Source of the DNA: Parelaphostrongylus tenuis
Lineage: Eukaryota > Nematoda > Chromadorea > Rhabditida > Metastrongylidae
NCBI GenBank assembly: GCA_019055375.1
Contig: JAHQIW010000071.1
Coordinates: forward strand, 1-64,000
Length of the DNA stretch: 64,000 nucleotides
Direction of reading: 5' to 3'
Shown: positions 3,001 through 60,499 of the stretch, in pieces
Layout: each line of letters begins with the position of its first letter
How positions within the stretch are numbered: position 1 is the first letter of the stretch
Program-made: the position numbers and the translations under genes
Notes under the pieces: generated by a model
Told to the model about the DNA's origin: nothing
Seen by the model: the letters and a program-made list of their open reading frames with translations, nothing else
Databases searched by the model: none

Positions 3001-4627
3001 TGTTTAAATCCCGTTTTTGAAGCAAACTGGAGATTATTGATGTATAGTGAAAGATTCTATCCAACAAAAAAGTGCTCCAAATACGCGTCCTATGATATAT
3101 CAAACAGGCTGTTCCAAGGGGTTGAATATGAAAACAAGCAATCCATATTTCAACAAAGTGATGTTACCCTAGGGTGGCCGTCACGTAGATTAGAAATACT
3201 GTAAAAGTATCTGAAAAATGTGTGCCACTTGTGGAGCAGGAAATCGGATAGACAAAGAATAGAAAGAATGAACAACAAAAATGAATTAATAATCAAGAAA
3301 CATTAGTTAGAGTTTTCTTAACTACATCTATGATAAGTTTAACGAATATAATTTGCCTATGAAATGACTTTAAAAGGTCTATCAATATATTATATCTTCT
3401 TGAGCTGGACGTTCACTATTTTGTCAACTACACGAAGATGAAGTAAAGGATATATATGACCCTTTCGTATATCACGTTTTTTTCTGATAAATACAGAGTC
3501 AAATAAAGGCTATCATGTGGACGAAGGAATTGGAAAATGGTAAGAAAATTCTAGCAGATCTATCTTTCCTTCCGTTTTTATTTCAAATCGACCCTTTAAG
3601 TATTCATGAATCCAGTAGTATTCAGATTAAAAATCCGACATTTACGTTAGCTCTTCAAAAATTCGTGGTAATACTTTTATTCAACTGTTTTCTGAAGCGT
3701 CGCTCATTACTACATGATCTGACAACATATTTTTGAGCCTTTCATGAAATTTTTCATTGGCATTTAAACATTGCAAGATACGTGTTTCGGCATTCCAAAC
3801 TCGTCCAGCTGCGCGGTGCCATTTCGTCTTAGCCAGTCCATTTCAGGTGGAGAACCCCCTCATATACAGGAGTGGTCGAGTAACATGTTACACTGCGCGC
3901 GTCTAAGCTGAGAATTTCACGTCACACACTGCAGAGATAACATATCAATCGACTACTAATCACTACAATGTTCGGTAATCCCGTCACTGGATATACAGTG
4001 GTACTCTTGAAGAAGCGTGTATTATCAAACGACATCTCTGATCACTCCGTCTACCGTGCTTGTATTCTTCATGTGTCTTATGAAAAATGAGTATCAGTTA
4101 TTTTATGCTTTTTCCACTCTGCTCCTCACTGTGACGTCTCTATGCTATTCCCAAAAACTTAGGCGTTCTAGAAGCGTACGCGTCGCATCGCTTAGATACT
4201 ATCTCTTGCCATATACGTCCCCTCCGCTCCGATTTACATTGCAAGCAAACTAGGCATCCCTTCACTCCGTCCTGTGTAAATTACTACCAAGCGTGTTTGA
4301 GAGGATAGAAAAACCTATTTGGTGGATTTATGGGATTCTATAAATCGCTGAAAATGCCAAATACGCGTTCACTGCTGCTATGACTGAAGTCAAATAAATG
4401 TTGCATGTTCTTTGTTTATCAAATGTCTTCTCTTCTCCTGTTCTCTATAAATGAGGTAGATTTTTTTTTGCAATCCTTATCATTCTTCTAAATCGTTTTT
4501 TTTAATAAAAGCCTGTCTTTAATTGATAATTAGTGCCGTCTGTGCATTGGACTAGCGTCAATGGCTTGTTATATTCGAATGACTGACTATTCCACTTCTA
4601 ACAAGCCGTCTCGAATGGAATCACGCA

Positions 4628-14055: not shown

Positions 14056-14369
14056 GGTCGGTTTCTTTTTTTTGGAGTGCTTCTTCTCGCTTTCTACCAT
14101 TATGTCAGTCGACGACAAATTTGTCACTTATCTCGGCCGTCTTCTCATCGAGACAAGCATCGAAAAAGTTGAAGATGAAGAGAATATTTTGAACTCTTTC
14201 TTAAGCTTTTGTACAAGAGAGTGAGAAAATTAAATAAGGCAGAGTAGATTAACCCCTTGATCACGTTAGATGGTAATTAGGTAATTTACTGCCACCCAAC
14301 TTCTGTCGCTTTGAGAAAAGTAAATGCATTTGTGAAATACCGTCCCTTCCTAATTTTTTAGATTGCTTG

Positions 14370-14560
14370 AAGCCTTACGCGAAATTGGTACGCTAGGGTC
14401 ATACACGCGTGTTTCGGAGGTCTCGTCCTCCTGGTCAGTGACCCACGCCCCACATTAAGCTCTGAATGTAGCAACGAGGGAGGCGTATGTGGTAGCAGCA
14501 CAGTGTAAAAAGACATACACTTTGTTCAACCAGCCAAATCCATCGAAACTATTGTTTATT
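14370..14560. mobile_element. Foldback/MITE family A, left half
   Basis: Matches the left and central part of the 22-kb copy (GTGACCCACGCCCCACATTAA, GCAACGAGGGAGGCGTATGT) with the right arm lost. Confidence 0.7.
14396..14444 (-). ncRNA. Hammerhead ribozyme with core mutation
   Basis: Stem I GGGUCA/UGACCC, stem II GGAGG/CCUCC, GAAA and stem III ACACG/CGUGU all pair perfectly, but the core reads CUGACCA, so the catalytic G8 is C. Predicted dead. Confidence 0.65.
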
Positions 14561-14775
14561 ACGAGGTTTCAGAAACAGTCGGTGCCATGGATCATACCTT
14601 TCATTTCGAGCGTTTCTTGAGACCACGCTCAAATTTTCACATTCTCGGCTCAAAAATAACTATCAGCCATATTATGATTTGGGCGAAGTCTCAGGAAACA
14701 CTTGAATGGTATAAAGTTTTATGAACTATTCATTTCTTAAGTCAAAACTTGAGTTTTAACCAAAGAAAAGGACAG

Positions 14776-15100
14776 CTCGCAAGAAATGTTACACCTTTTT
14801 TTTACTCATGCCGGTGTTTACATAGAGTCGGAATCTGATTTATTACGAAAAGTATAATATTTCACGATCACCAGCCAAGAGCAATCAAGTGTACAACACT
14901 TCCCGTTCGATGATCTTATCACTTGACTGCGCATGTAAGAGCTACGGAGTTGTTTCTAATAGATAGCGAATCTGTACCGGCGGAACTGACTGAACCGAGG
15001 AGCACCGTGCAACTGACGAAGCTGCATGGCTAGAACACATGTATTGGACTGTATAAGTGTCTCATGCATGGCTAAAAAGTAACCATCACGCAAGATCAGT
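14776..15100. mobile_element. Foldback element related to the 32.5-kb copy
   Basis: Shares CCAGCCAAGA-CAA-CAAGTGT, CAACTGACGAAGCT and the ATGCATGGCT-AAAA end with 32460-32860. Boundaries are approximate. Confidence 0.5.
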
Positions 15101-18100
15101 ACTATTGAGCAATAAGTAGGATGAGCAGAAACGAAAGATTTTTACTTTTTTCTAACTATTTCGAAGCTGCTCGTGGACGAGAGGCGAAAAGATATGCTCT
15201 ACAGAAGGATGTATCACGTGTTTCACGAAATGTGAAAACCCTGGAAAGTTGGAAAAATTCATCGGTCTCTTTCTCATAATGATCATTGTTCAACTGCCAC
15301 AGAGTCTAATGGAGTTCGAACAATGGTCTTGTATGTCATCCTTTGGGAACTATGTTAAGAGGAGAGATGGATTCAAAAACTCTTCTAGCAAACCACGAAT
15401 TTCCTTCAAGATACTGATAGAATTTCGGAAACTCTTGAGTATCGTGGTGCGTTTTGAAACATGTTGTCCTTTATGTGATGCATCACTTCTGTAATCATCT
15501 TATGTATCTCATCTTTGACTAATCGACATGTTTTTTTTTGGCAATCTTATTGGTCGAACTCTCTTCTACTCATTGAATTCACTTTCTGTTCAGGTATTAT
15601 TTAACGAAAAATCGATGAAATGCTCAACGAATCGAACAGTTCTGCTGAATGTGGACTTGAACCGCATGACTACCTTGAGGCTGGTACTTTACTACATAAC
15701 TTTAATTCAAATTTCTGACATTCATTAATTGAGCAAATGGATATAAATAAATACACACACATTTCAGAGACAGTACTCAAACTTTTGTAGCAGAGTTCTT
15801 CGTTGAATCAAAGAAATCAAGTAGCGGAACAGCCAACCGCTAGCTGAATGATGTAGAATAAAAATTAAGCATAGAATTTCCAATACTTCACAAGATTCAT
15901 ATTATTTCGTGTTTGAATATATTGAAAGTTTTATATAAATCAAATAAATACGTTTTATTAATTGGCGAGAATTAGTGAATTTGTAGAAACAGTGGGAAAT
16001 TTTTAAAAAAGTTGCAGCAGTTTCTTTTTTGAATCTCTTCACAATGAACTCCAGTAGCGCTTTGCTTAGGTCTGAATTTAGATTTCCAATAAAAGTTTGT
16101 TTTTCAACGCATAAGTAGCCACATGGTTTCAACTGTTGGCGCATATTGGCCATCACTTTAAAACAAGTAACGTGTTCAACAGTTGCTCCTTTCGCTCAGA
16201 ATTTACATTTTCTTAACTCATTCGTTACCGTATCTTCGCATTTGAATTGAAATTATCCGTCTCGTCAATTGTGCCGCAATAATATAGCTCTGCAGCGTTG
16301 TTAACTAACTATATCATTAAGACTCTCTCTGTACCTCCCTCTCAGCAGTACTTTAACCCATTCGGTGGCCGCCAGCAATCACCCTATGTATCATTAGGTT
16401 CTGGTGTCATCAGTCGTTCACAACAATTGATGATTATCCCTTAATGAAAAAATCGAATATAATAATCAAATTACGAAGTTGTTTCAATCCGTAGCGTATT
16501 ATTGTTAGCTAAGTTGCCAACTTTGCTTAATTACAATGAATACTACTTGGATGATGCGGGGCGCGACGAAATGAATTAGGACGAATCATGCAGGTGTTGG
16601 CAAAATTGTCTTCTGACTGGCAAATTATTGGGTTTTTTCCTGATTGCAAAGAAACACTGGGAAAACTAATCTTATTCGCTAGGGAGGAACTTTTCATAGG
16701 ATGTTAGTGAAAATTCGTAAGCTGAAACTTCGGGTTACGGCCCCACGTCGGTGGTTTTCCAAAAAATTCTTTTCTTGGCGTTGCTACTGGAGAAATTTTT
16801 TTTACGTCATAGACGTGCATAATTCTCGCCAAGAAGAGCTTTTTCTTTGAATTATTAGTAATCATTTGATAGCGTAATCGTTTCTGATTCCAACGCTATG
16901 CTTATACCCTAAATTATCGTTTCTCTGCAGCGCATCATAGAAAATAAGATTGATTCACATGCGCAAGCAAGGTGGTCTTTGGTCAATTCACCGGCCGCCA
17001 GTCAAGGCAGAAATGTGAGTTGCGCGATTATCAATCGATTTTCGGTCGTTATTTGATTAGGAACTGCTTCTCCGCTTTGTAAAGAAAACTCTAGATAGAA
17101 GGTATGACTCTAGTATAAAGAGACTCTGACTGCTTGCATTTAGTCATGAATGCACGCTTGCACGGTTGAATCAATCATCATTACGATCACTTTGATGGAG
17201 TCCAGGAGGCCGTGACGTCCTCATCGTTTTCAACAGTGCTTCCTCTACACGTTCATATGCTCGAAAATCGATCTATAATTATGAGGCTCCATTGCTGCCT
17301 CAGCCAGCGCCCGTTGAATTGGCCAAAGACCACCTTGCTTGCCCATGTGAATCAATCTTATCTTCCGTTGCGTTGCAGAGGAATTGTCGTTTTAGGATAT
17401 AAGCACACCGTTGGATTCAAGAACGACTGCGCTATCGAATTACTATTAATAGTTCAAAGAAAAAGCTTTGTCGGCTGGGAAAATATGCATATCTGAGGCA
17501 TACTCTTGTGTAGACTTCACAACGTTACAAAAGTGTGTTTAAAAAGAACCAGCGACGTGGGGCGGTAGTTTGAAGTCTTAGCTTTCAAATGATTGCTAAC
17601 ATTCCTATGAAAATTTTTTCTTCAGCGAATGAGGTCGGTTTTTCATTTGTTCCCTCATAATCAGAAAGAACCCCTACTGATTTCGAAAAATTGTTTTTGC
17701 GTGGAAGTTTGAACGTCGTAATAGGGCAATTCTATTTTCACTACCTACTATCTAGTCATAAAAGAGCTACTGAATGAGAGTATAGACTTTTTTTCTCCAT
17801 AGAGACGTTTTCTACCTCATGTTGGAAAAGGCTCCATATTGTTCACTTACCTCGTGAGGCTGATATCTTATGTAAGAAATCCAATAGTATGTTATCGAAA
17901 ACCGTTTTCTAGATAGATATGAGTAGTCGATATTCTTCAAATTATTGAGCTAATTCGAATTTGACTCAATACAACAAAAAGTCATATCGCGATGGCAAAC
18001 GGTTGTGGACAACTGGATCGAATTACCTCGGTTTTCAAGAAAACAAAGATAAGGACCGCTAGCTAAATAAAGTTTGAAACACACCTTGCATAACCTTAAT

Positions 18101-19741: not shown

Positions 19742-22700
19742 GCCATCGATGAGAAATCCGAACAATTTGTTCCTAACGGCACTAGCCGTTTTCGATTCTT
19801 GCCTTTTGATCACTGCCTTCTTTATCTACGCCATGGAGTACATCATTGAATACACACAAGCGTTTAATTTGTACGTTGCATGGCTAACATATTTACGGTA
19901 AGTATAAATTCATTGCTACTTTCTCATATGCAAACACAAAAAAAAATTATTTTACCAAAACACCTTTGTGGTGACCAAATAGTGCTCTACCGAGAGCTCT
20001 ATATTTACATGTGAGTGAGATGTCGTCATTATAACCTGTAATCCCGTTAGACGAAGAGTAGCTATTATTTCTTGACAATCCTAGTAATTTCCATGAGTCA
20101 ACATCTTACCAGTGAACTTCGCTGACACAAGTAACATGACCATCATCAGATTCCGTAAGAATGTTTGGAGCCGTAACTAGGTTGTTACGCCAGAGCCATA
20201 CATACTTTTCGCAGGTCTCGCCCTCTTCATCAGCGGCTCACGCCCCAAACTGCAGCCTACTCCATAGCAAGGTTGGGAGGCGTTGCTCATAATGATAACA
20301 CTACCATGAGATAATGCTATCACCATTTATTCTTACCTATTGTAAGCTGGAAGATAGTGGGATATTTCGATGTATATGGCATTTGGATATTTAGACATTA
20401 AGAAACCTCACCCGCCTACCATGATGTGGTAATCATTGAAGACTAAAACAAGAGACGCTTCAAAATTATTTTAAACAACTTTGCACTCGTTTTCAATCAT
20501 CGGCATTCCGTAGAGATCTCAAAATCTTGGAAATGTGAGTTCAACTGCTTCTTGACAATTTTTCATCTTCATTAAGGCCCGAATGCCATGAATATCGATG
20601 TACTTGGTTCTTTTCGAATTTTAGAATTGCCGTGTTGAAGCGATCTAATAGGGATTGAAGGGAGTGAGTAATCTTATAAATGTCTGGAACCAATTATACT
20701 GATAACGAAAAAGTGAGGATCTTGGTGGCGCGTTGTGGAATTGAATGAGCTGCCTTCCTTAGTAAAGTGCATCACTTCCACAAGGCCATTTTCCCTCTCA
20801 GTTTTTGTGTTACATCGTTTGACTGTTTTTCTCCTTGTATTCATGTATCTAGGCAACTAATTCTCATTCTCATGTGTTAGTGCACCTGTCAAAGTTTCTC
20901 TTCTGTCTTACAACATTCATTCATAGAGATGGCGGGGCTCGTGTGTTGGTGGCGCTTTCGTGTGTCGTCTTATCGACCTTCTGAACCTGATCCGACCAAA
21001 CGTCGATTGTAGGTTACCCTCAAATCCAAAAGTAGCAGCAACAGTGCGTTCGTATTTTCATCGTCGCCAGCTGCCAGTCCTCGTGGATCCGAATAAATGC
21101 TTTTATGCGATTAGGATCCGTCTACGGCAGCGCCAAATCCTGTGCTTAAGCGACTCTCGCCAATTTTGATTTAAAACAATGTAAACAATGAATAAGATAT
21201 AATTTTGGTCAAGTTCCTTGTCGTTGAACAGCTAGAGAAATGTCTGATTGAACTATTCAAGAAATCATCTCAGCTTTCAATTATAAACTAAAAATGATGA
21301 GTGGTATGCAAGACTATCGAACCAAGCGGGAGTTGAACGCACATTTTGTCTATACCGGATACGCATGCTACCACTACATCATCGAGGCCACCCCATTGCA
21401 ACAATTTTTCTTCGATATGAGTTATCGCAGCTGTCAGCAAGCAACTTTCGAAGAACCTTTGGCATCCGACGACGTTGCAAAGCTCAGTTTGAAACTCAGA
21501 GAAAGTGGCAGTTATGTCACAAGTTCTTTTGTTTCTAATGCGAATGAAGTATAGCTTTAGCGACTTTTCCACTGGGGTTGCGGAGGAGTTTGACTGACTG
21601 ATTTGAGACACTCAGATCTATTTGCTTCAAAGAAGGCGAAACCGCCGAAACCTCAGTTGTTGAAATAAATTGTGTTATCAGAGCCTTGTGTTTGGATCAC
21701 GAAGAAAAAATTCATTTTTCAGATGTTTATCCATATAACATCATAACACAGCTAGAAACCGTAAATATAGAGAACTTGTCTAGGTCATCTTGGCTTATTA
21801 CGTTGATTCTATTGAATTAAACAATGAATCGTGAGAATCTTCATATCTTTAATACATTTGCTTCTTTTTCTGCATTGAATTCTTTCAGCGAATGGCAATG
21901 AATCTTCAGAAATATTTGATAATTACTTTTTTTATCCACAGCATCGACTGTTTTCAAAGCCTCGTAATAAAGGTTTAAAATAGTCTCAAAAAGAATGCGC
22001 AAAGCTTAAGCGAGGTTGATGCGCTAGGGCCATACACCGGTGTTTCAGAGGTTTCGCCCTCCTCTTCAGTGACCCACGCCCCACATTAAACCCTGCATTG
22101 TAGCAACGAGGGAGGCGTATGTGGTGATTGCAAAGTGTATATTGACTCTGGTCCATCACCACTTCCCAGTCGATGGATGATCTCGGCTGGTAAAGCACTG
22201 ACGAGGATGGCGAGACCTCTGAAACACCGATGTATGACCCTGGCGTATTAACCTCGCTTAGGCTTTATGCATTCCTTTTTTTAGAATTACTTTTTTTATT
22301 ATAAATGACTTTGTAGAAAAACCTATGAACCCCGAGGTTAAACTGTGATCCTAAACGTTAGCACTTTTTCTCTTTCTTCTTCGTTTATTTCATTCATACA
22401 CTGGCCTCATTCAACTACTAGATTTTGGAATTTCACTAGGGTCTGAGAGGATGAAAAATTCAACGAATTTGATAACCAGTCTCAAAACAGCAAGTGTGAT
22501 GTTTCCCTTCCATGGAATTTTATTAGGATGTTGCAGTATCATTTGGGAACCCGTTTATGGGTACTGTACAAGGATATTCACTGAAATGATGAAATATTAC
22601 AATAATGCTCAGAGATTTGTCAGCACACCATCCTTCACTGTATCGAATTCTGCTTATAAATCAATATTATTCAATGAGAACGTACTGTAAACCTTATTTA

Positions 22701-30700: not shown

Positions 30701-33700
30701 CGTTCTCACACTTCTCGAGCGAATTGTCGATCATGAGACATTGGTAAGGAACTGTTTGTATTGTAGTCACCCATTATCACCTAACAAAGCCGTTGTCCAT
30801 ACGGCATTCTCATACCTTTATAACGATATTCTAAGATGCTAAAGTCAACTTTCGAATGATTTTCTTTGCTGGTATTTATATCATATTATACCTTTCCTTC
30901 GAGTGCTTTATTAAGATCACGCTCAAATTTCAAAAGATCCTTTCATTATTATTTGAGCCAACATGTCATGTGGTCTGGTAAAGGCTCTTGTACAGCCCGA
31001 GACACGTGTTTCGTCCTTACAGACTCATCAGCCGGGCAGAACCCGTCGTCTGTCGATCTTTTCATAGTCAGTTCTCTCGGGAGCGTCACACTCCTTATAT
31101 ATAGTTATCGACGACCTACGCTTTACATTCTATGTCAGGTGAAAGATTCACCTAAAAACACGTGGATGAAACACGTGTCTCGGGCTGTACAAGAGCCTTT
31201 ACCAGACCACATGACATGTTGGCTCAAATAATAATGAAAGGATTTTCTTTGCTTTATGTATTTCTAACTATAGGTTCATGACGAGGTGAAGCAAATTTTC
31301 TAAGACGTGTTCCGTAGTGCAGTGACCGAAGCGTAGTTGACAAAGATAGCGTACAATATTTGCCCGTGCAATTCTACTCTGGGCCAACCTTGACTTTCAT
31401 CTCTTTGATTGACGGATTTGTACTAAATGTGTCTATAAATGCTCGCGCCGATGTAAATACTGAGCGTGGTAGCCTGAAAATTTCTTATAGGTATTATAAA
31501 ATGTATAAGTATAGAGCGCATGTGGCGCATTGGTTAGAAGTGTCCTGCGTCGCACGCGAGGTCAGTGGTTCGATCTCGCGCTCATGGCTCACCAAGCCAT
31601 CCATCCCTTCGGGGTCGGTAAATTGGTACCAGACAGATCTCAGACTTGTCTGGGAGGATAAGCAGCACTGACTCGGTTCAGCGGGAGGCCAACGCGAGTC
31701 ATTGTAAAGGCCAGATGTGCACTCAATCACCTCAAAAGAAGTTAAAGATTAAAGTCGAATGCATGGCGCATCCCTCAGGGATCGATCAACGCCAAGAGCT
31801 TTATCCTTTTTTACTCTAAGGTTCTAATGAAATGTATTTGATCACTTTCGCTAGCGTTTTTCATGGTCAAAGGTCTAAGTGACAGCCAATCTCCACATTA
31901 AAGTTTGAACACCTTCATGGGCAACGCAAACGAGAGTGATTGAATTAAACAAGCGCTCATACTTGTGCAAATCGTGTTGCAGGTAAAACGAATAATTAGA
32001 GGGATACACGAGAGTTCTTAAGAATTTCTAGCATTTTGGTGAGTTTTGGTTGCCTTCTTCAGAGCCACCTTTAATCGCTTTGATCCGCTCGCCACCTAAC
32101 CACAGAAAACTCTCCGCTTCTGAAAATATTTTATTTGATGAGATAGCAAATCTTTCTTCATCCAAAGAAGTTGACAAGACAGTGCTCATAGTGATGGCCT
32201 GCTATCGATACGCCACGTGTCTTTCTCAAAATGTAAAAATCATGTTTATTCGAATGTGAGCAATTCAATAAGTGGCGGAGTGGAGGATCTGTACGATTGA
32301 CTATCTCGACGTCTTAATATCAATATGTAGAACATAAACGAAGTCCATGCGCGATGGGGAATTATTGCTTGATTTATATCCAAAATAAGACCGTTGAGTG
32401 AATTTTATATCGACGACCTATTATCTTACCGTTCGCTTCGAGTGTTTTTTTTTTCAAACCACGCTCAAATTTCAATATGCGTGATAACTATTTTTTGAGC
32501 CATGCATGTGGTCTGTTATGGCACTTCTACTGTGCAATAAAAAATAATTATCAGGACAAATTTAGCTTTGAGAGAGGTCTTGAAACACTCGAAACAAATG
32601 GGATGATATGTTATAAATACCAGCCAAGAACAAGCAAGTGTGCAACAGTGCTACTTAGTGATTTCTTTCACTAACCGGCACATATGAATAGTGCGTCCGC
32701 TCCTTCTCTATGTAAAAGGTTGGGTTACCCTGAGAGGAGGATTGGCTAAGATGAAAGGTACTGAGCAACTGACGAAGCTTCAAGGCCGAAACACGCGTGT
32801 ATATGTATAAGTGCCCATAAAAGACAACATGCATGGCTCAAAACTAGTTATCGAACGAACCTCATATCAATTTGTCAAGAACAAGGCAGCTAATTAGTGG
32901 AAATTCCATCTGTGAGACTACCCATAAGTGTTTTTTTTTGTTTTATGGAAAATTCCTGCTTCTCTTTGGTTGCTGACCAGATTTCTTTTAGATGATCAAA
33001 CATCATGCCTTCTACACTTTTTCTCGTGAAGCCATCAATTTTCTAGCTATCATAAATTCCTCGATTAACTTTGTTATCTATATCATATTCGGAAAAGATT
33101 TCAGGTAAGTGGGTACACTTAAATACTAATTCACAGTTAGTAATCAATATATTTAATCGCACTTTTTCTTTCTGAGCTAAAACTCAAAGTTGACATGATA
33201 AATTTGCTTGAGCAGCTAATTTTCCGGCGATTTGGGCTTCTCCAGAGCCCAGAAAGATGGTCACGTTGCCCACGACTTAGTCAGTCAAAGGCTCCATTAT
33301 TTTCCAAAATGAAACCACTTAATGTAGATTTCAATTAGATCAACTACAAAACAGCTTTGATCTACTCACCGCTTCTTATAAGTCCATCACTACGCTAAGT
33401 TAATACCACCCGAGTTAAATTCACATGGACTTCGAATGCACCGTTCACACCAAGAAACAGTCATGTATACTGTGTCATATTATGCGTGATAATGAAGCTT
33501 CCTCCTGAAGTACATGTTTGGATTCGTGGACTTTATCCAGATTGCTTCCAAAATCTTACGCGCTGAAATTACATGTTTCTATTTAAGCATGATGACTTTT
33601 AGCTGAAAATCCTCCCTTTATGTGTCTGTCCACGCGAGCCCAACAAGCATCTGATTTAGCTTTAGGATTTCCCACTAGGTGTTCTTTTATGCGCACTCAA

Positions 33701-36967: not shown

Positions 36968-37737
36968 CTTCTCATTCATCACTTCGTATTGTCCTACGTT
37001 CCTCCTGCAAACTTGTCTCGCCTTGCATTCAACTTTACAAAAGAAAATATCTGACCTAAATTCAGCTGAAACCCTTATCGATATTGTATGATGTGACCTC
37101 ATTACGTGGTAGTGTGCCTTGACTTTCTAACAATTCCATCTGATCTACAGACTCTGATTATCTAGATTTTTTATCGTGTCTTTAAATATAGTAGTAACGA
37201 TGCTGTTCCGTTACAAACACGGTTACTTTTCCATATACAACTGAATGCCGCTATGTTTGATTGGTAGGTGCCAATAAACTTCAAGGCCATAAAGTCGTTT
37301 TGTGGAAAATTAGGAAAAAACTATTACAGTGTAGAGGAATCTTATCAAAAAATTCCTTTCTTAGACGAATTCAAAACGAAGCTGAAGTTATGGTCAGCTT
37401 AGTTCAACTACCGGAGAGCTAAATTTGATTAGAAGCGAGTTTCCTGATGCTGCAGTGAGTCCCCCTCTTGGCTTAACCTGATATACAGTTTTTGCTTTTT
37501 AAAGATATTATGGAGCTTTTGATTCAATTAGGATTTGAAAGAAAAATATGAGATTTGCTTGTGCTTCTCGACATACATTTTCTCACACATAATTTCACAT
37601 AATGATTGTTCGTGTAGCGCAATGGTTAGAGGTGGCCTGCAATACTCACGAGGTGATTTATTCAGTCCCACGCTCCAGGTTCACGAATCTACCCTTCTCA
37701 TGTGGACAAAGTGCTACCAGAGTTCAAAATAATTTTA

Positions 37738-38010
37738 AAGAATGTTTAGGGCTTTACCCGCGGTTGGTATGCCACAGCCATACACGCGCGTTCCGGAAGT
37801 CTCGCCCTCCTCTCCAGTAACCCATGCCCATGTGCACTGTAGCAAGGGGGAGGCGAATGTGGTGACAATGACATTGTGCCATCAACACTTTTCAGTCGAT
37901 GGATCGTGACTAGTAAAGCAAAATTGATCCGGTGACGAGGAGGGTGAGACCTCCGAAACGCGCATGTATGGCTGTGGCATACCAACCTCGGGTAAGGCTC
38001 TAAACATTCT
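37738..38010. mobile_element. Foldback/MITE family A, full copy
   Basis: Arms AGAATGTTTAGGGCTTTACC and its complement at the right end; inside are the same TCTCGCCCTCCTC and CGAGGAGGGTGAGACCTCC segments as the 22-kb copy. Both ribozyme cores are mutated (CUGGAGA on the left, GUGACGA on the right). Confidence 0.75.
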
Positions 38011-38739
38011 CAAATATTATATTGAATCTTTATTGCGAGGTTTTCAAAAACAGTCGATGCCTTGGTACCGCAGTTGTTTCGGTGGATAGTAGCACCGACT
38101 GATTTCACCGGTACCTCACCGCAAGTCATTGGATCGGCTAAATATGCATGCAATGACCTCCAACGATTCATTTTGAGGTTAAATCCATGGATCGGTTCCC
38201 AAATGCCTGATGGACTTATCGCCTGGAGCTCTATTTTTTTCTGTTCTATTTATGGGAATCTTCAATGCACAGTTTTTAGAGACACTTTGCCTTATACACA
38301 GAGCAAATTAATCATTTCCGCTCCTTATATCAACCAAAATTCAATTTTAGAACAAGCGCGATTTCAACTAAAACACTCCGAATTGGTACGCAAGGACTAC
38401 TTTCTATTAACTTCGACACACTCTGCTATTCTCTGCTTTTTGAGGAGTAATAGATGGATATTTTGTAAAGTATTTACAACAGCTGACTTTGCAACGGACT
38501 CCGTCTTGCTATGAAGCCTGAGAATATTAAGTTGATTGCAGCCTAGTCAGCCAGATATCCACAACTCCAAAAGAAAAATCACGAGATTCAGAGCTTATCG
38601 TACTAAAAAGAAAACAACTTCATTACACACTTAGAGTCCTATACTTCTTTTACCAAATATAAAGGTGGAGACCTATCGTTTAGTTCACATAAATAGGAAA
38701 TTTGCCTCAATTCAAAGTATCAATTTTAGATATCATGTC

Positions 38740-39735: not shown

Positions 39736-40279
39736 GTCTTCAAGTATTGCACAGAATCAAATATTAAAAAAAAAACTTATAGATTTAGATCATAATTTTG
39801 ATTGTCGGCTTATTATGGCCGACAAAATGCTAGCATCACTGTAATTGCGTAGTAAAGGAGAGCTTTTTATAGAAACATGAAAGTTATATTTGAACCATAA
39901 GCGTATCAGTGTATAGGAAATCGAGGGTTCTTACTTGATTAGATGACACGAGTTTGGTAAACTGCTAATAGTTGTAGTAGTTAGTCTGGAGTTTCAGCGA
40001 TCTGCCTTCTTCAGAGTGCGGACGTACGTTGCATCAGACTATTTGGATGACACGGAGGATCTTTCCTATGCCGCCTAGATCAGGTCAAAAGATTAAAAGA
40101 ATAAAGGGCGGGAGGTCTCATGTGATGGCTTCATTCGCCTTTCCGGTTTATTTTGGGGTCTTTGGAGCATATCTAAAATACCTTAAGAGTTTCGCGCGTT
40201 GATGTTTTTGATTCCTGCGCTAGGATCGTGACACTCACATCAAAATAACTATTGCTGTGTTTTCGTGCCCTATGTTAAC

Positions 40280-40292
40280 TTAGAGATTTGCT
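40280..40292. repeat. Left 13-bp target-site duplication
   Basis: TTAGAGATTTGCT directly before unit A; the same 13 bp follows unit C at 41177-41189. Confidence 0.85.
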
Positions 40293-40329
40293 CTGATAAG
40301 GATATGACATATTTTGAGCCATAGGTCTA

Positions 40330-40377
40330 GTGCTATATAGGCGCCTATTTCGTCCTAGTGGGACTCATCAGTAGCAC
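40330..40377 (-). ncRNA. Hammerhead ribozyme, unit A
   Basis: Minus-strand motif with stem I GUGCUA/UAGCAC, core CUGAUGA, stem II GUCC-CACUA-GGAC, GAAA, and a palindromic stem III AUAGG/CCUAU. Residue 17 is A, so cleavage is predicted between 40336 and 40335. All conserved core residues are present. Confidence 0.92.
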
Positions 40378-40613
40378 CCTCCCTCGGTTCCGTCGATCCC
40401 TTGAGGTGAAATAATCCTCTAAAGGAATCGACGCCGAGTAAAAACTAAGCACCCAAAGTAGGATGAGGTATTACCTGACTTTGTGGTGACCGGCAGTCGA
40501 GCTTACGGCTTTTAAAATGAATCATACTTCTGCTATCGACTGCTTTTTTTTACAGACCCGCTCAAAATGATTTAATCTGATAAGGATATGACATCTTTTG
40601 AGCCATAGGTCTA

Positions 40614-40660
40614 GTGCTATATAGGCGCCTATTTCGTCCTATTGGACTCATCAGTAGCAC
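40614..40660 (-). ncRNA. Hammerhead ribozyme, unit B
   Basis: Same fold as the unit A ribozyme, one base shorter in the stem II loop (GUCC-AAUA-GGAC). Predicted cleavage is between 40620 and 40619, so the two sites bound a 284-nt minus-strand RNA monomer. Confidence 0.92.
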
Positions 40661-41057
40661 CTTCCCTCGGTTCCGTCGATCCCTTGAGGTGAAATAATCC
40701 TCTAAAGGAATCGACGCCGAATAAAAACTAAGCACCCAAAGTAGGATGATGGTATTACCTGACTTCGTGGTGACCGGCAGTCGAGCTTACGGCTTTTAAA
40801 ATGAATCATACTTCTGCTATCGACTGCTTTTTTTATCTGTAAAAATCTTTTTATCTTTATCTTTTTATCTTTTTTTTATCTGTAAAAAAAGCAGTCGATA
40901 GCAGAAGTATGATTCATTTTAAAAGCCGTAAGCTCGACTGCCGGTCACCACAAAGTCAGGTAATACCATCATCCTACTTTAGGTGCTTAGTTTTTACTCG
41001 GCGTCAATTCCTTTAAAGGATTATTTCACCTCAAAGGATCGACGGAACCGAGGGAGG

Positions 41058-41105
41058 GTGCTACTGATGAGTCCCAATAGGACGAAATAGGCGCCTATAT
41101 AGCAC
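41058..41105 (+). ncRNA. Hammerhead ribozyme, inverted unit C
   Basis: Plus-strand copy with stem I GUGCUA/UAGCAC, CUGAUGA, stem II GUCC-CAAUA-GGAC, GAAA and stem III AUAGG/CCUAU. The core is intact. Confidence 0.92.
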
Positions 41106-41176
41106 TAGACCTATGGCTCCTTATCAGATTAAATCATTTTGAGCGGGTCTGTAAAAAAACCAGTCGATAGCAGAAG

Positions 41177-41189
41177 TTAGAGATTTGCT
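41177..41189. repeat. Right 13-bp target-site duplication
   Basis: Second TTAGAGATTTGCT. Taking one copy and removing the insert joins SKSL on the right flank to the GIY-YIG continuation at 40279 in the same frame, though old stops interrupt that frame. Confidence 0.85.
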
Positions 41190-42624
41190 TTTATCGATTT
41201 TAGATTTGCCATCTAGATGCTCTTTTACGCGAGTGAAGAGTTATCCACCTGTTTCGCCTATATGATCCTTCACTTATCTCTAACATGTAATTAAATAAAG
41301 TGTGTCCGATCTCAACAATCTCGCTCGTTTCAGTTCGCGCAGAATATGCAGTTCTTTGTGATCATAGTCGATCGTAAATTCTATTGTGGATCAGCTGATG
41401 GCGCAGGATGGGAGGTGGGATTTCAATAATGACCACAGAATATTCAAGACCGCATCTTTTTAGGCAGCTTTCAACCGCGCTGCTGATTTCGTTTGATATG
41501 AATGGAAGTTTGAACGGATTTTATTTAGGTGTGGGGCATTGTTCTTTGGGGCCCAATTTCACCTTTTGAATTTCCTGAGTGGCTGATGTTTTGTAGCTAT
41601 TGGAAATGGCTATTTCTCGTGCCAAATGTAACGATTCGTTCTTTTCCTCATCTCCTGTGCACACATTTTTGGCCGCTCGCTACACGATTTTATTAGGCGA
41701 TTTTCATGTGTGAAGGATGAGGCGGAAGGTCATGGACTGCAATGTGTTTGATACTTGGTTTTCAATGCCATTTAATACTAAAGCCATTATATAAGCTTTA
41801 CTTGGATGTTAAAAAATGGAAGGCAGCTCTCGCTTGGACTCTCTCGCGTAAATTTTATATGCTCTGACTGTCCGTTCTAATCTTCAGAACAATTGCCAGT
41901 TCCTCTTGTGTCTAGTAGACAATGAAATCTATACACCGACAGTAGAGCAATGAGAGGTGAACAAGAACTGGAGCTTTTGTACATAAAGGCGATGGCAAGC
42001 CTAGGTGCCAACCGTCGACTTATGGATAGCCTCTGAGTTGTGTAAAGTATTTTCCCAATCACCGAAAGATCGAACAACTAAGATATCTTTTCAGGGTGCT
42101 CATTAGTTGTTGAACTGAGAAGCGTACATATTCATTTTTTGTTCATTTTCTATGAGAAATTGGAAAATGGCTTGCACTGCAGAGTCATTTGATACGTTTC
42201 TATAGAGTAAGGTAACGTCAGATGACTCGATTACATGCGAGTTGTTTGATTTTGAGCAACGTAAGTGACTTGAGTACTGAGCAGAGGGGTTCTTATAAAT
42301 TTGAGCACTTGAGTAAAGATAAGAGTTAGCAACCACGTTATTCTAACCGTTGCTTCCCATATGCAAAATGATAAGTCTAACCTGGTATGTTAATGGATCG
42401 GTTGACACAAGATCAGTAGTAGATATTAATTTATGTTTTTCGTTAGTAGGTATAGGATCAGACAAATTGAATCATTGTTCTTGAAGCCGAGAGATAAGTG
42501 AAGGTTCCAAACCCGCTGCATTTGCCGTGTAGACCCATTCTTTGTTTAAGTTTTGGTATTGGCGCTTATATTACGTTCTCAAAGGATGGACGATAGAAGG
42601 AAACATCCTGAAGGTGTTTTTCCA

Positions 42625-55853: not shown

Positions 55854-60499
<4,646 letters not shown>

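Follow-up and report, generated by a model that had tools for sequence, protein, structure and literature searches.

The 884-bp segment at positions 40293-41176 of the window (the whole 64-kb stretch of DNA analysed) is a single insertion, abutted exactly by perfect 13-bp duplications, and is best read as a retrozyme-like element bearing the insertion footprint of a Penelope enzyme, a reading that makes the question of how such elements are mobilised testable. We consider it likely that the insert is a non-autonomous retroelement of this type, inserted by the machinery of a Penelope-like element (PLE) priming on both target strands. PLEs have been described as strong candidate movers of animal retrozymes, with LINEs as the alternative (PMC7229834), and a 2024 review still names both (PMC11722881). 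Direct signs of a Penelope reverse transcriptase (RT) moving such hammerhead units were lacking before; the footprint of the insert, with an inverted copy at one end, resembles the work of this suspected enzyme. The element would also extend retrozyme-like elements to nematodes. Among the titles and abstract openings listed by searches of an open-access library of incomplete coverage, there was no report of a nematode retrozyme and none of a PLE-type footprint on a retrozyme.

The insert is made up of two tandem units, an A/T-rich filler and a third, inverted unit, enclosed by the two copies of the target-site duplication (TSD). Outer ends are counted throughout from the first base past the hammerhead cut.

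40280..40292, no strand: left copy of the TSD, TTAGAGATTTGCT, 13/13 against the right copy
40293..40576, minus strand: unit A, 284 bp, its outer end being the short end, +43 nt past the hammerhead cut
40577..40845, minus strand: unit B, extending into the palindromic centre
40846..40872, no strand: A/T-rich filler of 27 nt separating the inverted arms B and C
40873..41176, plus strand: unit C, inverted; it spans one unit length and 30 nt of overlap and has a 15-nt deletion
41177..41189, no strand: right copy of the TSD, TTAGAGATTTGCT, 13/13 against the left copy

The sequence TTAGAGATTTGCT is found at 40280 and 41177, with no third occurrence in the 64-kb window. Units A and B start at 40293 and 40577, 284 bp apart, and their junction is seamless and in circular phase, with no trace of an ORF between them. 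A is 97.3% identical to B (259 columns) and 97.1% identical to C (242 columns), whilst C and B are 90.9% identical (285 columns, the 15-nt deletion of C being counted). The inverted arms of B and C (40644-40845 and 40873-41074, 202 nt each) are 95% complementary across the 27-nt spacer, and C stops on its outer side, at the long end, 8 nt past CAGTCGAT. The G+C content is 0.44, and the longest listed stop-to-stop frame beginning inside it is 74 amino acids. No other close copy of the 284-bp unit was found in the 64-kb window. The original prediction of two near-identical monomers 284 bp apart, joined with an inverted third in one 884-bp insertion, is thus exact in its coordinates, and the 13-bp target duplication that it named matches at 13/13 positions and abuts 40293-41176 directly.

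Inside the ragged ends, the changes private to one unit amount to one substitution and one single-base gap in A, three and one in B, and four substitutions plus the 15-nt deletion in C, one further column being ambiguous. With only three sequences each difference is private to one of them, so equal descent (a star tree) of A, B and C is not claimed. All four substitutions private to the inverted unit (40873-41176) are G to A on the hammerhead-sense strand. The stretch 40644-41074 forms a near-perfect 202-bp hairpin, a transcript of which would be a long double-stranded RNA; weakly scoring matches to unrelated microRNA families at 40738-40980, all below gathering score, are attributable to this long B-versus-C hairpin. 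An inverted-repeat DNA transposon (MITE) was rejected because the termini do not match: relative to the cut, one end of the insert lies at unit position +43 and the other at +77.

Each unit carries a type I hammerhead, detected both by motif scan and by the Rfam Hammerhead_1 covariance model:

40329-40378, minus strand: hammerhead of unit A, 26.1 bits
40613-40661, minus strand: hammerhead of unit B, 28.0 bits
41057-41106, plus strand: hammerhead of unit C, 29.5 bits

CTGATGA, GAAA and a complete stem I are present in all three, and ATA precedes the cut; as read by hand, stem III can form four pairs closed by a self-complementary GCGC tetraloop. The motif scan found five hammerheads in the window, three of them inside the insert, against a mean of 0.05 and a maximum of 1 in 40 first-order Markov-chain sequences of the same length as the window, which excludes chance occurrence. 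The Hammerhead_1 E values for A, B and C are 0.046, 0.011 and 0.0034 over the 64-kb window and 0.0008-0.00006 over a 1.1-kb stretch. A scan of the window at the gathering threshold (34 bits) lists none of the three, the sole hammerhead above it being at 30995-31037 (34.9 bits). The covariance-model scan originally proposed therefore returns type I matches in every unit, at scores below gathering, and the description of these hammerheads as intact is apt for the core sequence, which is kept in all three, and not for the Rfam cut-off. Circular folding of the 284-nt unit gives -86.3 kcal/mol, whereas shuffled sequences average -65.1 (z -3.9) and none of 100 is as stable; hammerhead stems I and II are both present in the predicted fold. 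In searches with short pieces of the hammerhead, a 25-mer matched no genome contigs and a 17-mer matched three viral contigs, in none of which the printed bases went on to form a hammerhead.

The insertion splits a decayed PLE ORF on the minus strand (42133 to 40134), which was located by tblastn with P0121, a protein of Ancylostoma ceylanicum that combines an RVT_1 with a GIY-YIG domain:

41190..42133, minus strand: decayed PLE ORF on one side of the insertion, in pieces (RT side 42133-41696, middle 41679-41371, first part of the GIY-YIG domain from 41312)
40134..40292, minus strand: rest of the GIY-YIG domain

When the flanks are joined without the insert and one duplicate, P0121 gives a single gapless GIY-YIG match of 94 amino acids (66.6 bits), compared with two broken matches of 30.4 and 48.5 bits in the unjoined window. 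In the converse comparison, the read-through of the joined flanks matched P0121 at E 8.7e-25 (two of 45 candidates at E <= 1). The empty site can thus be reconstructed from the window itself, as had been predicted; the reading phase by itself is weak evidence of this, because insert plus one duplicate come to 897 nt, a multiple of three. The GIY-YIG piece matched no Pfam family, and a first, shorter protein query of it found no match, the longer query leading to P0121. A second decayed PLE remnant, again matched by P0121 (E 1.4e-7), lies at 33981-33495. The insert itself contains no RT/GIY-YIG ORF: the PLE ORF found is that of the interrupted target.

In its anatomy the insert agrees with the retrozymes of Metazoa as they are described in PMC7229834: tandem type I hammerhead units whose 284-bp length falls within 170-400 nt, a G+C content of 44% (reported values being below 45-50%), no ORF of note and apparently no coding capacity, a TSD longer than 4 bp and a stable self-paired fold. 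The retrozyme-like character originally proposed, based on tandem 284-bp units, hammerhead cores and the 13-bp TSD, is thereby borne out. It differs from them in its inverted unit, its recurrent outer ends and its PLE-like footprint; the words 'inverted' and 'nematod' are absent from the main text of that paper. According to PMC3846280, the Penelope elements of Adineta vaga have a pair of direct pLTRs with an inverted one next to them; a 31-bp tail may be present, and the TSDs measure 8-10 bp. The insert shares the two direct repeats, the adjacent inverted one, the short tail and a TSD with them, whereas its TSD is 13 bp and it has no RT/GIY-YIG ORF. The inverted monomer had been regarded as an extra attachment, a view that is revised here: direct plus inverted repeats with a short tail and TSD are a documented Penelope form (PMC3846280), and the layout also fits a PLE protein that extends both strands (PMC11167929). 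By this comparison unit C is probably no oddity and fits the form in which Penelope inserts.

The same resemblance raises the alternative that, rather than a retrozyme propagating in its own right, the insert is an ORF-less PLE relic, its units being pseudo-LTRs brought together by internal deletion. Two direct repeats and one inverted repeat with a TSD are indeed the layout of a PLE shell, and retrozymes have been proposed in review to have arisen by PLE reduction (PMC11722881). The A-B junction, however, is seamless, in circular phase and at a spacing of 284 bp, as one would expect if the unit itself had been copied, and no ORF trace lies between the two. We therefore hold this alternative to be doubtful, although it deserves some weight.

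The insert is one of at least nine loci in the 64-kb window that carry the hammerhead-plus-downstream module. With the insert as E1, the others are:

E2, 30871..31240, minus strand: opposite-strand arms, ends at +130 and +61; TSD GATTTTCTTTGCT at 30858 and 31241
E3, 21936..22284, minus strand: opposite-strand arms, ends at +97 and +50; TSD AATTACTTTTTTTAT at 21921 and 22285
E4, 37725..38065, plus strand: opposite-strand arms, long end at +97, short end at about +56 (by eye)
E5, 14351..14590, minus strand: one arm and a tail on the opposite strand that stops at the long site
E6, 32430-32880, both strands: composite of module pieces
E7, 3680-3813: single arm, decayed, found by profile
E8, 20154-20245: single arm
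E9, 15007-15096: single arm, decayed, found by profile

The TSDs of E2 (13 bp) and E3 (15 bp) are perfect, and the E2 hammerhead is the one that exceeds Rfam gathering. A scripted TSD search covered E1-E4; the duplication of E4 is doubtful (6/7 at best by script, at shifted ends, and 8/10 by eye), and the left end of E5, at about +51, was placed by eye. A profile trained on six sequences from E1, E2 and E6 matched three loci outside its training set, E9 at 31.2 bits, E7 at 30.4 bits and E4, in part, at 15.2 bits, whilst the best of 123 matches in 20 Markov windows, with two profiles, scored 8.0 bits. Rfam at permissive thresholds found no hammerhead in E3, E4, E5, E6 or E8. Four of these loci (E3, E4, E5 and E8) form a second, Rfam-negative family of hammerhead-like elements, three of which have opposite-strand arms or tails ending at a common motif. 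E6 lies some 600 bp downstream of the second decayed PLE ORF (33981-33495) and possibly represents the terminal repeats of that PLE. TTTGCT closes the TSD of E1 as well as that of E2, which may point to a target preference common to the two.

The outer ends of these elements follow a pattern. In E1 they lie at +43 (short) and +77 (long), the latter becoming +92 with the 15-nt deletion of C restored, and in all three elements with perfect TSDs (E1, E2 and E3) a short outer end on one strand is paired with a long one on the other, so that either flank represents the RNA from its 3' side. CAGTCGRT precedes the long end by 8 nt in E1 and by 7 nt in E3, E4 and E5. E1 and E2 each have an 8-bp stem whose loop contains the short end (GCTCAAAA/TTTTGAGC and GCTCAAAT/ATTTGAGC), and the long end of E2 is some 35 nt farther out than those of E1, E3 and E4. 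At the inner side, the arms of B and C in E1 both stop at an identical unit coordinate, and the inverted arms of E2, E3 and E4 start just 16-39 nt upstream of the hammerhead cut.

Biochemical work on PLEs provides a parallel for these ends. As reported in PMC11167929, a PLE protein in purified form cuts the two strands of the target and extends each of them, favours A/T-rich DNA and starts reverse transcription at two adjacent internal RNA sites, the interval between which becomes the tail. Within the PLE ORF, the main start lies at 111-118 nt and the hammerhead cut at 26 nt, which by our own arithmetic from PMC11167929 places the start 85-92 nt past the cut; the long ends of E1 (+92) and of E3 and E4 (+97) are close to this distance and that of E2 (+130) is not. 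Poseidon of Anolis carolinensis thus resembles the insert in having a hammerhead followed by two RT start sites at a similar distance, and its two-strand priming would yield the arrangement found here (PMC11167929). It differs in being an autonomous vertebrate element with the start sites inside its ORF, and its tail is 30-40 bp, compared with 49 nt in the insert, or 34 nt with the deletion in C left as it is (PMC11167929). Hammerhead mutants of the lizard PLE inserted unaffected in vitro (PMC11167929), and for this reason any ribozyme activity may serve RNA processing rather than insertion itself.

On this basis we propose the following course of events. The template would be RNA of the 284-nt hammerhead unit, either circular or of several units, and a Penelope-like RT/GIY-YIG protein would copy it and cut the two strands of the target at positions about 13 nt from each other. 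Antisense cDNA would be primed by each target-strand 3' end at either of two fixed positions within the RNA, a short one some 43 nt and a long one some 92 nt past the hammerhead cut: the left strand would prime A and B from the short site (almost two units, about 1.9) and the right strand C from the long site (slightly over one unit, about 1.1). The two cDNAs would be joined head-to-head at the A/T tract with some filler, and repair would leave the 13-bp duplication. A circular or multimeric template is suggested because both cDNAs are longer than one unit. Their common stop coordinate could be accounted for by an RNA 5' end at that point, or by snap-back; since the ribozyme cut lies elsewhere in the unit, there is no indication of a template that merely stopped at it. 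The PLE ORF remnants at 42133-40134 and 33981-33495 count in favour of a PLE. No autonomous PLE bearing the same hammerhead module was found in the 64-kb window, so that the enzyme itself is putative. The link to Penelope RT made in the original prediction has accordingly gained structural support from the layout and the end sites, the enzyme itself being a matter of inference. The more specific proposal, that a Penelope enzyme moves hammerhead RNA circles and makes cDNA from both strands, each running for more than one round from a fixed start, is advanced tentatively. Were it true, a PLE recognition module made up of hammerhead, stem-loop, CAGTCGRT and long site would be present in strongylid retrozymes, and an inverted unit would serve in general to diagnose the insertion of retrozymes by PLEs. 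Should both end sites turn up again across the genome, the inserting enzyme could be decided from sequence alone, and then with purified enzyme.

Several observations count against the PLE reading. Three of the nine loci (E7, E8 and E9) are single-armed and E6 is composite; the long end of E2 is displaced, the duplication of E4 is weak and the left end of E5 depends on the eye; E3, E4, E5, E6 and E8 are silent in Rfam; the TSDs of 13-15 bp exceed the 8-10 bp of Adineta; and the comparison relies on a PLE from a vertebrate, whose hammerhead is dispensable for insertion in vitro. The common inner-arm end of E1 also belongs here, as a snap-back copy explains it equally directly. In that scheme a single cDNA (A then B) would be made from one target strand, and its 3' end would fold at the A/T-rich palindrome and copy itself to give C. 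A single centre of symmetry lies between the inverted arms (40644-40845 and 40873-41074), and the sequence at this centre could form the hairpin required. Snap-back would nevertheless leave the outer end of C at an arbitrary position, yet this end matches the long ends of E3, E4 and E5 relative to the motif; nor is the centre a fixed fold point, because the inverted arms of E2-E4 start 16-39 nt upstream of the cut. Snap-back is on these grounds improbable. Mobilisation by a LINE of the RTE type through L1-style twin priming, which makes inverted segments in L1, would suit the abundance of RTE-like copies in the window and is improbable, as it requires an RNA 3' end at one side only plus a second site chosen by microhomology, whereas here two internal sites recur across elements on opposite strands.

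The RTE-like retrotransposon copies, related to strongylid ones, lie at 10.7-14.0 kb, 42.6-43.7 kb and 45.9-48.4 kb. An RTE endonuclease ORF matched 854 proteins at E <= 0.001, and the matches listed (the best 120 of the 854) include proteins of Angiostrongylus, Ancylostoma, Necator and Haemonchus, together with a Parelaphostrongylus tenuis protein 94% identical over 57% of the query. These matches identify the host as a strongylid nematode, as had been suggested. Elsewhere in the window, two nested inverted-repeat pairs of 76-77 nt occupy 16837-17467, and a Ras-family fragment with WDTAGQERF, probably a Rab GTPase exon, lies on the minus strand at 57282-57581.
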